A DNA stretch of 34,836 bases from Planctomycetota bacterium (GTDB lineage: Bacteria; Planctomycetota; Planctomycetia; Pirellulales; Thermoguttaceae), in assembly GCA_029550925.1 (NCBI GenBank), contig JAKPGL010000116.1:1-34836 (forward strand), given 5' to 3'. The notes beneath the pieces were generated by a model that had not been told where the DNA came from, ran no database searches, and saw nothing but the letters and a program-made list of their open reading frames with translations. Shown here piece by piece: positions 24,202-28,986 of this stretch. Numbering within the stretch: the first letter of the stretch is position 1; every line of letters starts with the position of its first letter. The translations under genes and the position numbers were made by a program.

Positions 24202-24789
24202 ATGTCCGAGTCAACTGCACCTGAGGTAACAAGCACTCTGACAGGGCACGAAAAACCCTCGGGAATGGGCCTGTTAGGAAAGGCCCTGGTAGGGGTTTTT
24301 CTGGCGGGGATTGTGACGGCGGAATGTGTGACGGTTTATCTGTTCCTCCCAGGAGAAGCAGAAACAGCCGCCCTAGCGGCCGGTACCTCGTCCACAGACC
24401 AAAATACTTCTACTTCCCAAAATGCCTTCCCCAATCCCACAGACCCCATTGCCCCGGACGTAACTGTCCCCCAAGTGGAGGTAGATCTCGGAGAATTTAC
24501 GATTACAGCCTACCAACCCATCTCCAATACCACGTTACGGATCGACTTCCATTTGTATGGTACCGTGGCTACGGAAGATCAACAGGCCTTCCAGGAGGCG
24601 CTGCAAACCAATATCCATCGGTTCCGGGATCAAGTGATCGTCATTGTTCGTTCGGCGGAACTTACGGACCTCACCGATGCAGGTTTGGGCTTGATTAAAA
24701 GGAAGATTTTAGAGAAAACTAACGCGATGTTTGGCAAGCGGTACTTAAAGGCCGTCATCTTTAGCGATTTTTCTTTCGTGGAGCAGTAA
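24202..24789 (+). CDS. fliL: Flagellar basal body-associated protein FliL
   Basis: 195 residues. One transmembrane helix at about 27-49 (KALVGVFLAGIVTAECVTVYLFL), a disordered Ser/Thr/Pro linker, then the SPFH-like periplasmic domain with VEVDLGEFTITAYQ, FHLYGTVATEDQQAF, RDQVIVIVRSAELTDL and the end KRYLKAVIFSDFSFVEQ. FliL surrounds the stator and stabilises it. The start is ATG 24202; no ribosome binding site is visible upstream, which is unusual in this operon. Confidence 0.9.
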   Translation: MSESTAPEVTSTLTGHEKPSGMGLLGKALVGVFLAGIVTAECVTVYLFLPGEAETAALAAGTSSTDQNTSTSQNAFPNPTDPIAPDVTVPQVEVDLGEFTITAYQPISNTTLRIDFHLYGTVATEDQQAFQEALQTNIHRFRDQVIVIVRSAELTDLTDAGLGLIKRKILEKTNAMFGKRYLKAVIFSDFSFVEQ

Positions 24790-24842: not shown

Positions 24843-25640
24843 ATGCCGGACGAAAACCAACTAAGTCAGGATGAAATTGAGCATCTGCTCTCCCAAGCCG
24901 GAATGAAGGGTTCCGGAGGTTCCGCCCCTGCTTCTCCATCTACCCCAGGAGCAGAGTCTTCTTCCGCACCCCCCGTTTCCGGCAATGCGCCGTCCCCCTC
25001 CTCGGCGGAAAGCCAAGGCGCTCCGGTTTTGGACCAAAAAGAGATCGAAGCCCTGATCAGTGGGGCAGGGACGGCTAAGGCAACCGCCTTCAAACCTGCC
25101 CCATCCGCTGCACCCGACGCAGAAAAGGTACTCAGTCAAGAGGAAATTGAACGGCTTTTGGCCCAAACAGGCCGAACCCCTACACCAGCCCAATCCCCTC
25201 CTCCACGGGAAACCAAGCTGGAAATCCAACCTGCCGAGCAGGAGATTGCCCCCGCGGATATGGAATACCTTTTACATCAGGCCCAGCAGGCCTTAGCATC
25301 TCTGGATCAGCCGGTGGAGAACGTCCCTGACGGGGTCGCCGCTTTTCGTCTGGAAGAGTTTTCCGGTGCACCGCCTTCGACCGAGGCGGCCACGTTGGAC
25401 CTTATCCGCGACGTCGAACTCGATCTGCGGATCGAACTCGGCCGGACCCACATGTATTTAGAAGACGTACTTCGGCTTCGGCGTGGCTCCGTAGTCCCGT
25501 TGGATAAGCTGGCCGGCGATCCCGTCGATATCTATGTCAACGACCGCTTGATTGCTCGAGGCGAGGTGCTGGTGCTCAACGATAACTTCTGTGTGCGGGT
25601 GGCGGAATTGTTGGCCGGTATGGGGCCGGAAACCAAGTAG
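24843..25640 (+). CDS. fliN: Flagellar motor switch protein FliN/FliY-like, with repeated FliM-type N-terminal motifs
   Basis: 265 residues. The C-terminal SpoA domain (about 185-260: [54 protein letters not shown]) identifies FliN. The N-terminal 150 residues are Pro/Ser/Ala-rich and carry four copies of a short helix motif: [14 protein letters not shown] (7-20), [14 protein letters not shown] (63-76), [14 protein letters not shown] (97-110) and a weaker [14 protein letters not shown] (135-148). This motif is the CheY-P-binding peptide of FliM and FliY (LSQxEIDxLL). A typical FliN is about 130 residues and has none. fliM is not in the cluster, where it normally precedes fliN. AAGGA precedes the ATG. 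Confidence 0.9.
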
Positions 25641-25759: not shown

Positions 25760-26662
25760 ATGCCCAGGTGGATGTGCTTTTGGATATGGGGGGGGGCATT
25801 GCTGGCCGGCGTTTTCTGTCAGGCCGCCGAGGGTATTTGGCCAAGGCAGAGCGGGTTGTCGGGTGGGGATCCGCGTCGATTGTCCGCCGCTGTGCGGGAA
25901 GCGGAAACCTCTGGGTTTTTGCCGACGACGACGGATACTTCTTCGAACCGGCAAGCTTTGCAAGACGAGGCCTCGACCCGTCGGCCCGTTCCAAGTGAAC
26001 ATCTCCAGGGGAACTCGGCCTCTTCCATAGTTTCGGGTTCTGCCGAGCGGTCGGAATCGGCCAGCGGCCCTGCGGGCGGCGATGCGGATCGCCCTGTGCG
26101 TCCTACCGAGGAAAAGTCGGTTTCTACCGGATCGGCGTCCGGACGCCCAGAACCGATTCGTTTCGGGCCAACCGCCAAGTCGCCGCCGCTTTCGGGCGTT
26201 TCTGGCCGCACTTTTGATCCTGCCGCCTCGACGCTTACGGTGCTTAGCAGTTTGGCGGTTGTTTTGGGCGTCTTTTTGCTCCTGATCTGGGCGATTCGGC
26301 GGGCGATGCCTCGCAGCGCCCAGATTCTCCCTACGGAAGTGGTAGAAATACTAGGCCGGGCGCCGCTGATGGGAAAACAGCAGATGTATCTTCTCCGCTG
26401 CGGCCCGAAATTGCTCCTGGTGTCTGTTACGCCGGAAGGGGCGGAAACGCTCACCGAAATCGAGCATCCGGACGAGGTAGCCCGCATTACCGCCCTGTGT
26501 CGCCAAGGCCAGCCGGGAAGCATTCCAGGGGCGTTCCGTCACATTCTGGATCAAATGGCCCATCCGAAACCGGCCCAGCGATGGTTCCGGCGGTCTGCGG
26601 AAGCCTTGGAGGATTCGGTTGCGGCGGAAGCATCTCTTCAAGAGGAGTCGGCCCGTGTCTAG
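25760..26662 (+). CDS. fliO: Flagellar biosynthetic protein FliO
   Basis: 300 residues. An N-terminal signal sequence (1-23, [21 protein letters not shown]) and a roughly 130-residue low-complexity periplasmic segment precede one transmembrane helix at about 157-180 ([21 protein letters not shown]). The cytoplasmic end has the FliO pattern [20 protein letters not shown] followed by [14 protein letters not shown]. FliO helps assemble the FliP core of the export gate. The periplasmic part is much longer than in enterobacterial FliO. fliP begins inside its last codons (8-nt overlap). Confidence 0.88.
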
Positions 26663-27728: not shown

Positions 27729-27804
27729 GTGATCTTCCGATTGCCTTTTCGACTCCTAGAGTCTTTAGTTTCTTTTGCCTCGCCCTCTGCCGAAGAGGTG
27801 TCGC

Positions 27805-28080
27805 ATGGACAGCCAACATGTCGTCGATTTGGGTCGGGAAGCCATTTGGATGGCCCTGCTCATGGGCGGCCCGGTGTTGCTGGCCGGGATGCTGGTCGGT
27901 CTGGTGATTGGACTTCTCCAGGCCCTTACCCAAGTCCAGGAACAGAGCGTCTCCTTCGTGCCGAAGTTGCTGGCCATGTTTTTAACGGTAAGCCTGCTTT
28001 TGCCTTGGCTTTTGGCCCGCATGATGGAATACTGCAGGGAGTTGATTTCCAGCATCCCAGAACACCTGAGTCCCCTGTAA
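27805..28080 (+). CDS. fliQ: Flagellar biosynthetic protein FliQ
   Basis: 91 residues with two hydrophobic helices (about 15-40 and 55-75) and the FliQ pattern VVDLGREAIWMALLMGGPVLL followed by GLLQALTQVQEQSVSFVPK. It is a small helical-hairpin subunit of the export gate. GAGG precedes the ATG at 27805; an upstream in-frame ATG lacks a good site. fliR follows after 108 nt. Confidence 0.93.
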   Translation: MDSQHVVDLGREAIWMALLMGGPVLLAGMLVGLVIGLLQALTQVQEQSVSFVPKLLAMFLTVSLLLPWLLARMMEYCRELISSIPEHLSPL

Positions 28081-28188: not shown

Positions 28189-28986
28189 ATGCAGTGGCTG
28201 ATGGCGTTGGCGCCGGGTCAGTTTTTGGCGTTGATGCTGCTATTTGTTCGGATGAGCGGCCTGGTGTTTACGGCGCCGGTTTTTGGCGGGCCGGAAATCC
28301 CGGCCCAGGTGCGGGGTCTGATGAGTCTGGCCCTGGCGGCAGTCTGTTGGCCTATGGTTCATGGGGCGGCTATTCCGCAGGGATTGACGTTGGTCGATTT
28401 TTTCATCCTCGTCGCCCAAGAACTCCTGATCGGGCTTTTTCTGGGCGTGGGAGTAAGCATTTTTTTATCCGGCGCCTATACGGCCGGCGAAGCGATCGGT
28501 CGGATGGGTGGGTTGATGGCGGCGGACCTATTCGACCCAAGTACGGAATCCTATGTGCCCCTATTTTCGCGGCTTTTGAGCCTGGCGACGTTGGCCTGTT
28601 TGGTTCTGCTGGGCGGTCATCGCATGATCATCGGGGCGCTGTTGGATACGCTGGAAAGCCTTCCGCCGGGGGGCGGCCTGCCGACCGACTCGCCCGGCAA
28701 AGCCTTGGTGTTGCTGTTGGATCAGAGTTTCCATCTGGGAATGCGGGCGGCGCTGCCGACCTTGTGCGCCCTGATGTTGGCGACGGTGCTGTTGGGCCTG
28801 ATCGGTCGGGCCGTCCCCCAACTGAACATCTTGCTTTTAGGTTTCGGCGTCAATTCGCTTTTGACCTTTGGGGTATTGGCCTTGACCTTTGGGGCGGCCT
28901 TGTGGGTGTTCCAGGACCAGTGGGAATGGGCCGTCGATTTCCTCCTGGAAGCCCTGCAAAACGCCTCGTCCCCAGTCATCCGATGA
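28189..28986 (+). CDS. fliR: Flagellar biosynthetic protein FliR
   Basis: 265 residues with several hydrophobic segments. The start LMALAPGQFLALMLLFVRMSG, the GGPEIPAQVRGLMSLALA motif, FFILVAQELLIGLFLGVG and GRAVPQLNILLLGFGV are diagnostic. FliR is the single-copy subunit of the export gate. AGAAGGA lies upstream of ATG 28189. Its stop overlaps an ATG that opens a 41-codon frame leading to flhB, which appears to be repeat-derived. Confidence 0.94.
   Translation: MQWLMALAPGQFLALMLLFVRMSGLVFTAPVFGGPEIPAQVRGLMSLALAAVCWPMVHGAAIPQGLTLVDFFILVAQELLIGLFLGVGVSIFLSGAYTAGEAIGRMGGLMAADLFDPSTESYVPLFSRLLSLATLACLVLLGGHRMIIGALLDTLESLPPGGGLPTDSPGKALVLLLDQSFHLGMRAALPTLCALMLATVLLGLIGRAVPQLNILLLGFGVNSLLTFGVLALTFGAALWVFQDQWEWAVDFLLEALQNASSPVIR

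Follow-up and report, generated by a model that had tools for sequence, protein, structure and literature searches.

An array of FliM-type motifs on planctomycete FliN as candidate CheY-docking peptides beside FliM

In the flagellar cluster of a Planctomycetota bacterium, a FliN protein carries several copies of a motif that resembles the CheY-docking peptide of FliM, raising the question of what such an array does on this C-ring subunit. The window, i.e. the whole stretch of 34,836 nt analyzed here, is an entire contig (G000:C7) of a 4.9-Mb assembly (233 contigs, 97.5% complete) and harbors the gene order motA-motB-fliL-fliN-fliO-fliP-fliQ-fliR-flhB. The ORF at 24843–25640 on the + strand encodes a 265-aa protein with a C-terminal SpoA domain at aa 187–257 (25401–25613, +; Pfam FliMN_C, E 3.5e-24, 85 bits against a cut-off of 23.8) and a match to the NCBIfam fliN model TIGR02480 (101 bits, cut-off 84.05). 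A SpoA match over the cut-off and flagellar export genes as neighbors together place it in the FliN family, and a structure search found its folded end to resemble solved FliN and C-ring structures (8umx, 9n49, 1yab). fliL (24202–24789, +) lies immediately 5′ of fliN, with no fliM between the two, and fliO (25760–26662, +) immediately 3′. Further downstream, fliQ (27775–28080, +) and fliR (28189–28986, +) were recognized by the Pfam domains Bac_export_3 and Bac_export_1, respectively; longer ORFs overlapping the frames of these two genes had no Pfam match.

The 186-aa linker preceding the SpoA domain contains four motifs, whose starts are 56, 34 and 38 residues apart: three distal ones (aa 7–16, 24861–24890; aa 63–72, 25029–25058; aa 97–106, 25131–25160; all +) and a proximal one (aa 135–144, 25245–25274, +) ~54 residues from the SpoA core. 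On a hand-made 10-position matrix, the distal motifs score 12.7–13.5 of a maximum of 13.5, a maximum also reached by planctomycete FliM motifs and by that of E. coli FliM; as the matrix was built after the motifs had been seen and with the FliM consensus in mind, such absolute scores mean little. Shuffling provides a better yardstick. Among 20,000 shuffles of the window linker, 34 contained one site scoring at least 11 and none contained two, as compared to four such sites in the real linker, the weakest at 11.2. Over 298 FliN ORFs (including duplicate records of the same genome), 606 sites scored at least 9 vs. 4.6 expected from shuffled linkers, a very large contrast. When a profile of the distal motif was run against the 4.9-Mb genome, only three places were hit at E <0.1, namely the window's distal motifs; the search missed both FliM's own motif and the proximal motif and is thus not exhaustive for other proteins. 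The four FliM-type motifs that an earlier, sequence-only reading of this DNA had described ahead of the SpoA domain are hence confirmed in position and spacing, and additionally by the shuffles.

An AlphaFold2 model built on 60 sequences (the window FliN plus 59 relatives) predicts helices at residues 9–22, 65–74, 99–109 and 137–155, the proximal motif opening the last and longer of them; elsewhere the arm is predicted to have neither helices nor strands. The 10-residue blocks at motifs 1 to 4 have pLDDT values of 88, 77, 84 and 95, making the proximal helix the most confidently predicted of the arm, and the 24–46 residues between motifs are predicted to be mostly disordered, with pLDDT <50 for most spacer residues. 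As expected of a protein with a disordered arm, the model as a whole is loose (mean pLDDT 66.8, pTM 0.30), and it says nothing on binding. The three distal motifs combine the two features looked for in a docking peptide, an LSQxEIDxLL-like sequence and a predicted helix.

The gap between fliL and fliN had been read as a missing fliM, with FliN standing in for the absent protein. This is true of the window's cluster but not of the genome: an intact fliM on contig C127 encodes a 351-aa protein (304.5 bits vs. a cut-off of 219.6) with the middle domain PF02154 (225.8 bits), and the N-terminus of this FliM, MSGEVLTQAEVENLLKAM, contains a docking motif of its own. The adjoining ORF resembles proA. 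An absence of fliM is therefore ruled out, and a FliN that takes its place is not supported; a complete fliM with its own motif elsewhere in the genome was, moreover, one half of what the sequence-only reading had named as evidence against itself. Up to 5 kb into each flank of 80 named FliN loci, no FliM match was found at E 1e-20, and the absence of fliM from the fliN cluster looks like a clade trait. For example, the one-contig relative G030 encodes FliN at 1.79 Mb and has two further SpoA places, one at 5.96 Mb and one, FliM, at 6.07 Mb.

A chemotaxis signal pathway is encoded as well. Contig C152 harbors an unbroken run of cheW, cheR, cheA (1061 aa), cheC-like, cheD and cheY genes, and the nearest PDB structures to the CheY encoded there are 1tmy and 4iga (T. 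maritima CheY; E 7e-31). With a motif-bearing FliM, a CheY and the kinase all encoded, the FliN motifs come on top of the FliM sites. The presence of CheC-like and CheD genes within the che run, together with a third, motif-free SpoA protein in the genome, would fit an array that binds several CheY-like response regulators, or a CheC-like CheY-P phosphatase, rather than one CheY; the three distal motifs of the window FliN are much alike, though, as would be expected if they shared a single kind of ligand, and we regard this explanation as very improbable. The third SpoA protein is a product of 299 aa (L003, G000:C70:3–899, – strand). Its C-terminal part recurs at the end of contig G000:C158 (L005), so the assembly seems to be broken within or beside the L003 gene, and a scan of five nearby ORFs on C70 revealed no flagellar domain.

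Relatives with FliN loci belong to Thermoguttaceae and other Pirellulales, including Blastopirellula, Botrimarina, Lacipirellula, Aeoliella and Adhaeretor. For the order, we assembled 121 FliNs with a complete 5′ end, leaving out those with an ORF that runs off the end of its contig (G034, G443, G477, G460, G468, G439 and G441) and three without a FliN core (L242, L248 and L250). Motif number per FliN ranges from 0 to 5 in this set: 83 FliNs have at least two motifs, 65 at least three, 18 at least four, and 21 have none. The comparison across planctomycetes that the sequence-only reading had proposed thus finds the array recurring in the order, ruling out an oddity or frameshift product of the window's genome. 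Two FliNs from named planctomycete MAGs (L122 and L141) contain near-identical motif-plus-spacer tandem units, two VDQ-x-EIEALLSGNAPAA units in L122 and a looser pair in L141; these look like recent duplications of a motif unit, a likely route of array growth.

Within the phylum, a FliN match was present in 192 of 392 genomes, 180 of them outside the order, of which 79 were examined, mostly from the top of the score list, biasing this sample to better matches. Eight of the 16 FliNs of family f17, from the same class, carry three motifs. The 63 FliNs examined from other classes comprise 40 with no motif, 13 with one and ten with two (some of the second motifs being weak). Among the FliNs examined, arrays of at least three motifs were thus confined to the window's order and f17. 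For other phyla we relied on plasmid records, reading 15 of the 106 that had a match: none of 13 FliN or FliN-like proteins contained a FliM-type motif, and the two FliY-type proteins (one called by annotation, the other by layout) had one each.

Alignment on the SpoA core separates two kinds of motif. In the order set, 87 motifs start at –53 to –55 relative to the core start (13, 44 and 30 cases, respectively), few are found at –52 or between –56 and –62, and nearly all the rest lie at –72 or beyond, with no equally sharp position. Proximal motifs follow the consensus D-[IVM]-[ED]-[LYF]-L-L-x-Q-A-[EQ]-x-A-[LI]-A-S, similar in genomes with CheA (72 motifs) and without (24), as opposed to L-x-Q-x-[ED]-I-E-x-L-L for distal ones, in which the near-invariant Q is in part a product of selecting them at a score threshold of 12. 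The window's proximal motif has P at position 3, where 26 of 72 proximal motifs from CheA-containing genomes have Q, and keeps the nearly fixed offset. This fourth motif had been called a weaker one: it is present, but it is not simply a weaker copy, and its nearly fixed distance to SpoA, own consensus and most confident helix of the arm exclude a decayed copy. Probably, the proximal motif does something partly different from the distal ones. It may have a structural role, act as an altered docking site, or combine the two.

Several FliNs outside the class (G279, G164, G298, G067) have a canonical LSQ-type sequence as their sole motif, at –49 to –59. This points to an ancestral docking site at the proximal place, to which distal copies were added towards the N-terminus; the proximal helix may derive from the single CheY site of an ancestral planctomycete FliN and may now also, or instead, be structural. 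A position-fixed helix would also suit an element of assembly or export, with the arm helices binding a C-ring or export protein (FliM, FliN, FliH or cargo–chaperone complexes) instead of CheY and their likeness to FliM being convergent or inherited from FliY without its function. Besides the 87 sites at –53 to –55, such a role would be in keeping with the persistence of the proximal motif in 25 of 42 FliNs from CheA-less genomes (21 of 26 when FliN is intact) and with the description of FliN, in a passage of PMC8809382, as docking place of the export ATPase complex. It should, however, be independent of chemotaxis, whereas the distal copies stay close to the FliM consensus, are variably spaced, differ in number between FliNs and are associated with CheA (see below). 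We consider it unlikely as an account of the array.

In the two same-genus relatives G001 and G002, 36 and 35 of the 40 motif residues of the window FliN are kept, but only 45 and 41 of the 98 spacer residues. At the codon level, silent and replacing changes number 17:4 and 17:5 in motifs vs. 28:53 and 24:57 in spacers. Within the window's genus, motifs are therefore conserved while spacers drift. This is hard to square with distal copies that are near-neutral, loosely kept leftovers of a repeat-prone, low-complexity linker, the proximal helix alone being essential as part of the ring structure. That FliNs of the order have anything from 0 to 5 motifs, that several FliNs have one or none, and that L122 and L141 contain tandem units could all be accommodated by such a division; the conserved motif codons beside drifting spacers cannot easily be, and neither can the retention of at least two distal copies in 58 of the 79 FliNs from genomes with CheA. 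We rate it as improbable.

Docking of CheY by the distal motifs predicts that they go with the chemotaxis kinase. The 58 of 79 FliNs just mentioned compare to 8 of 42 from CheA-less genomes in the order set (within-family permutation p 5e-5); at least one distal motif was present in 68 of 79 vs. 20 of 42. Considering only the 100 intact FliNs (core E <1e-30), the figures for at least two distal motifs were 58 of 74 and 8 of 26 (p 1.5e-4). CheW was detected in 11 of 43 genomes without a CheA match, several with at least three CheW domains, and in several of them a CheW domain in a long ORF may represent an unrecognized CheA. These 11 genomes are part of the first count and were set apart in a second, in which FliNs from genomes with neither CheA nor CheW had at least two distal motifs in 6 of 31 cases (6 of 21 intact ones; Fisher p 4e-5 vs. 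CheA-containing genomes). Because the SpoA core is short (~72 aa), we used family-stratified permutation and genus collapse in place of a tree-based test, a design that falls short of a full phylogenetic model. After the data had been collapsed to a single value for each genus and CheA state (46 and 34 values), within-family permutation yielded p 0.0009 to 0.008 for distal motifs over four variants. The proximal motif was also tied to CheA, yet more weakly (p 0.003–0.007; genus-collapsed p 0.04–0.10).

By family, mean distal motif numbers with and without CheA were 2.16 and 0.38 (f1), 1.84 and 1.0 (f7), 2.0 and 0 (f10), 1.38 and 0.33 (f16), and 2.25 and 2.0 (f13); they were equal in f2 (1.67) and reversed in f3 (0 with, 0.5 without). 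Outside the order, FliNs averaged 1.13 motifs with CheA (n = 47) and 0.45 without (n = 29). Family f8 of the order has many genomes with CheA, but none of its genomes appears in the list of FliN matches, so that chemosensory genes occur there with no FliN recognized. Exceptions run both ways: 11 of 79 FliNs from CheA-containing genomes (6 of 74 intact) are devoid of distal motifs, and at least one is retained by 20 of 42 from CheA-less genomes. The one-contig genome G507, with no match to CheA or CheW, has retained the proximal motif alone.

FliM gives a further view on these exceptions. Of 20 stretches searched for FliM, 14 contained an intact and three a diverged protein, and three (L253, L267 and L270) gave no match at E 1e-20. 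The FliM motif was kept in all 17 intact FliMs examined, four of which stem from CheA-less genomes; either motif loss does not strictly follow loss of CheA or a CheA was missed, and those cells may still use a CheY. Linkers are also shorter in CheA-less genomes, where FliN or FliM is sometimes degraded, so that part of the motif loss may reflect general decay. Some CheA-less relatives encode a strongly diverged FliM or a short FliN (L268 of G006, L269 of G004, L266 of G037 and L031 of G019), and the FliM N-termini had no motif in G006, a degenerate one in G004 and, within the portion covered, a partial one in G037; these are possibly flagellar systems that are decaying or being reused. Taken together, distal motif number tends to go with the chemotaxis kinase, which supports, but does not prove, a role in CheY docking.

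How does this FliN compare with known switch proteins? Its distal motifs share the 10-residue pattern L-S/T-Q-x-E-I/V-D/E-x-L-L with the CheY-binding peptide at the start of FliM, the genome's own FliM included. FliM, however, has one copy per subunit and the PF02154 middle domain, whereas the window FliN has three to four copies and lacks that domain, and a passage on E. coli puts FliN at about four times FliM (PMC4161238). The closest NCBIfam match of the window protein is to the FliY model PRK08119 (aa 98–257, 111.9 bits, under the cut-off of 218). Like the window protein, FliY of the B. subtilis type joins an N-terminal motif of the CheY-docking type to a SpoA domain, and a section of PMC9126983 states the EIDALL motif for both FliM and FliY; but FliY has a single motif (in both FliY-type proteins of our sample) and a CheC-like middle domain (PMC7355467), in contrast to the several motifs and sole FliMN_C domain found here. 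Given the single-motif FliNs outside the class, the window protein could possibly be a FliY from which the CheC-like domain has disappeared. Canonical FliN (E. coli, Salmonella, T. maritima) shares the SpoA domain, and an excerpt on E. coli says that CheY binds FliN after FliM (PMC4161238); the 13 FliN or FliN-like proteins from other phyla differ by having no FliM-type motif. Among FliNs of other planctomycete classes, several have a sole LSQ-type motif 49–59 residues before the SpoA core, and none of the 63 examined has an array of at least three.

Our preferred reading, to which we assign a probability of roughly 0.65, is that the distal FliN motifs are CheY-docking peptides beside those of FliM, next to a proximal helix fixed in position near SpoA. 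FliN, a C-ring subunit, would thus display three FliM/FliY-type docking peptides on a long, mostly disordered arm, with one position-fixed helix beside the SpoA domain. CheY would be phosphorylated through the CheA pathway, whose genes lie on another contig, and the distal peptides would most likely form short helices upon docking to it, acting alongside the single motif of each FliM. Each motor would then offer docking peptides at several times the number of FliM subunits, holding CheY near the ring. What is inferred here is that CheY binds, that binding depends on phosphorylation, how many sites a motor has, and any effect on switching, such as a changed sensitivity or cooperativity. Phosphorylation dependence in particular may not apply to FliN, as T. 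maritima FliY is reported in a review to bind active and inactive CheY alike, its affinity for activated CheY being not above that for inactive CheY (PMC7355467). If the E. coli figures from PMC4161238 (in the section concerned, FliM:FliN 1:4 and ~120 FliN per motor) applied, ~360 distal peptides would face ~30 on FliM, and it is conceivable, though we hold it only tentatively, that avidity would serve to buffer, integrate or sharpen the CheY-P signal.

Among the best matches in the open-licence PMC literature, we found no report of FliN motif arrays or of planctomycete switch complexes; EIDALL-type motifs are known on FliM and FliY, and an array on FliN is new as far as these matches show. 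It bears on two standing questions, namely how ~30 FliM subunits convert slight shifts in CheY-P into all-or-none switching, and what role the flexible FliM tether plays. A natural series of FliNs with 0 to 5 docking peptides, differing between relatives, would allow one to probe directly whether sensitivity, cooperativity or buffering depends on the number of sites, and whether switching can be triggered by a ligand bound to FliN.
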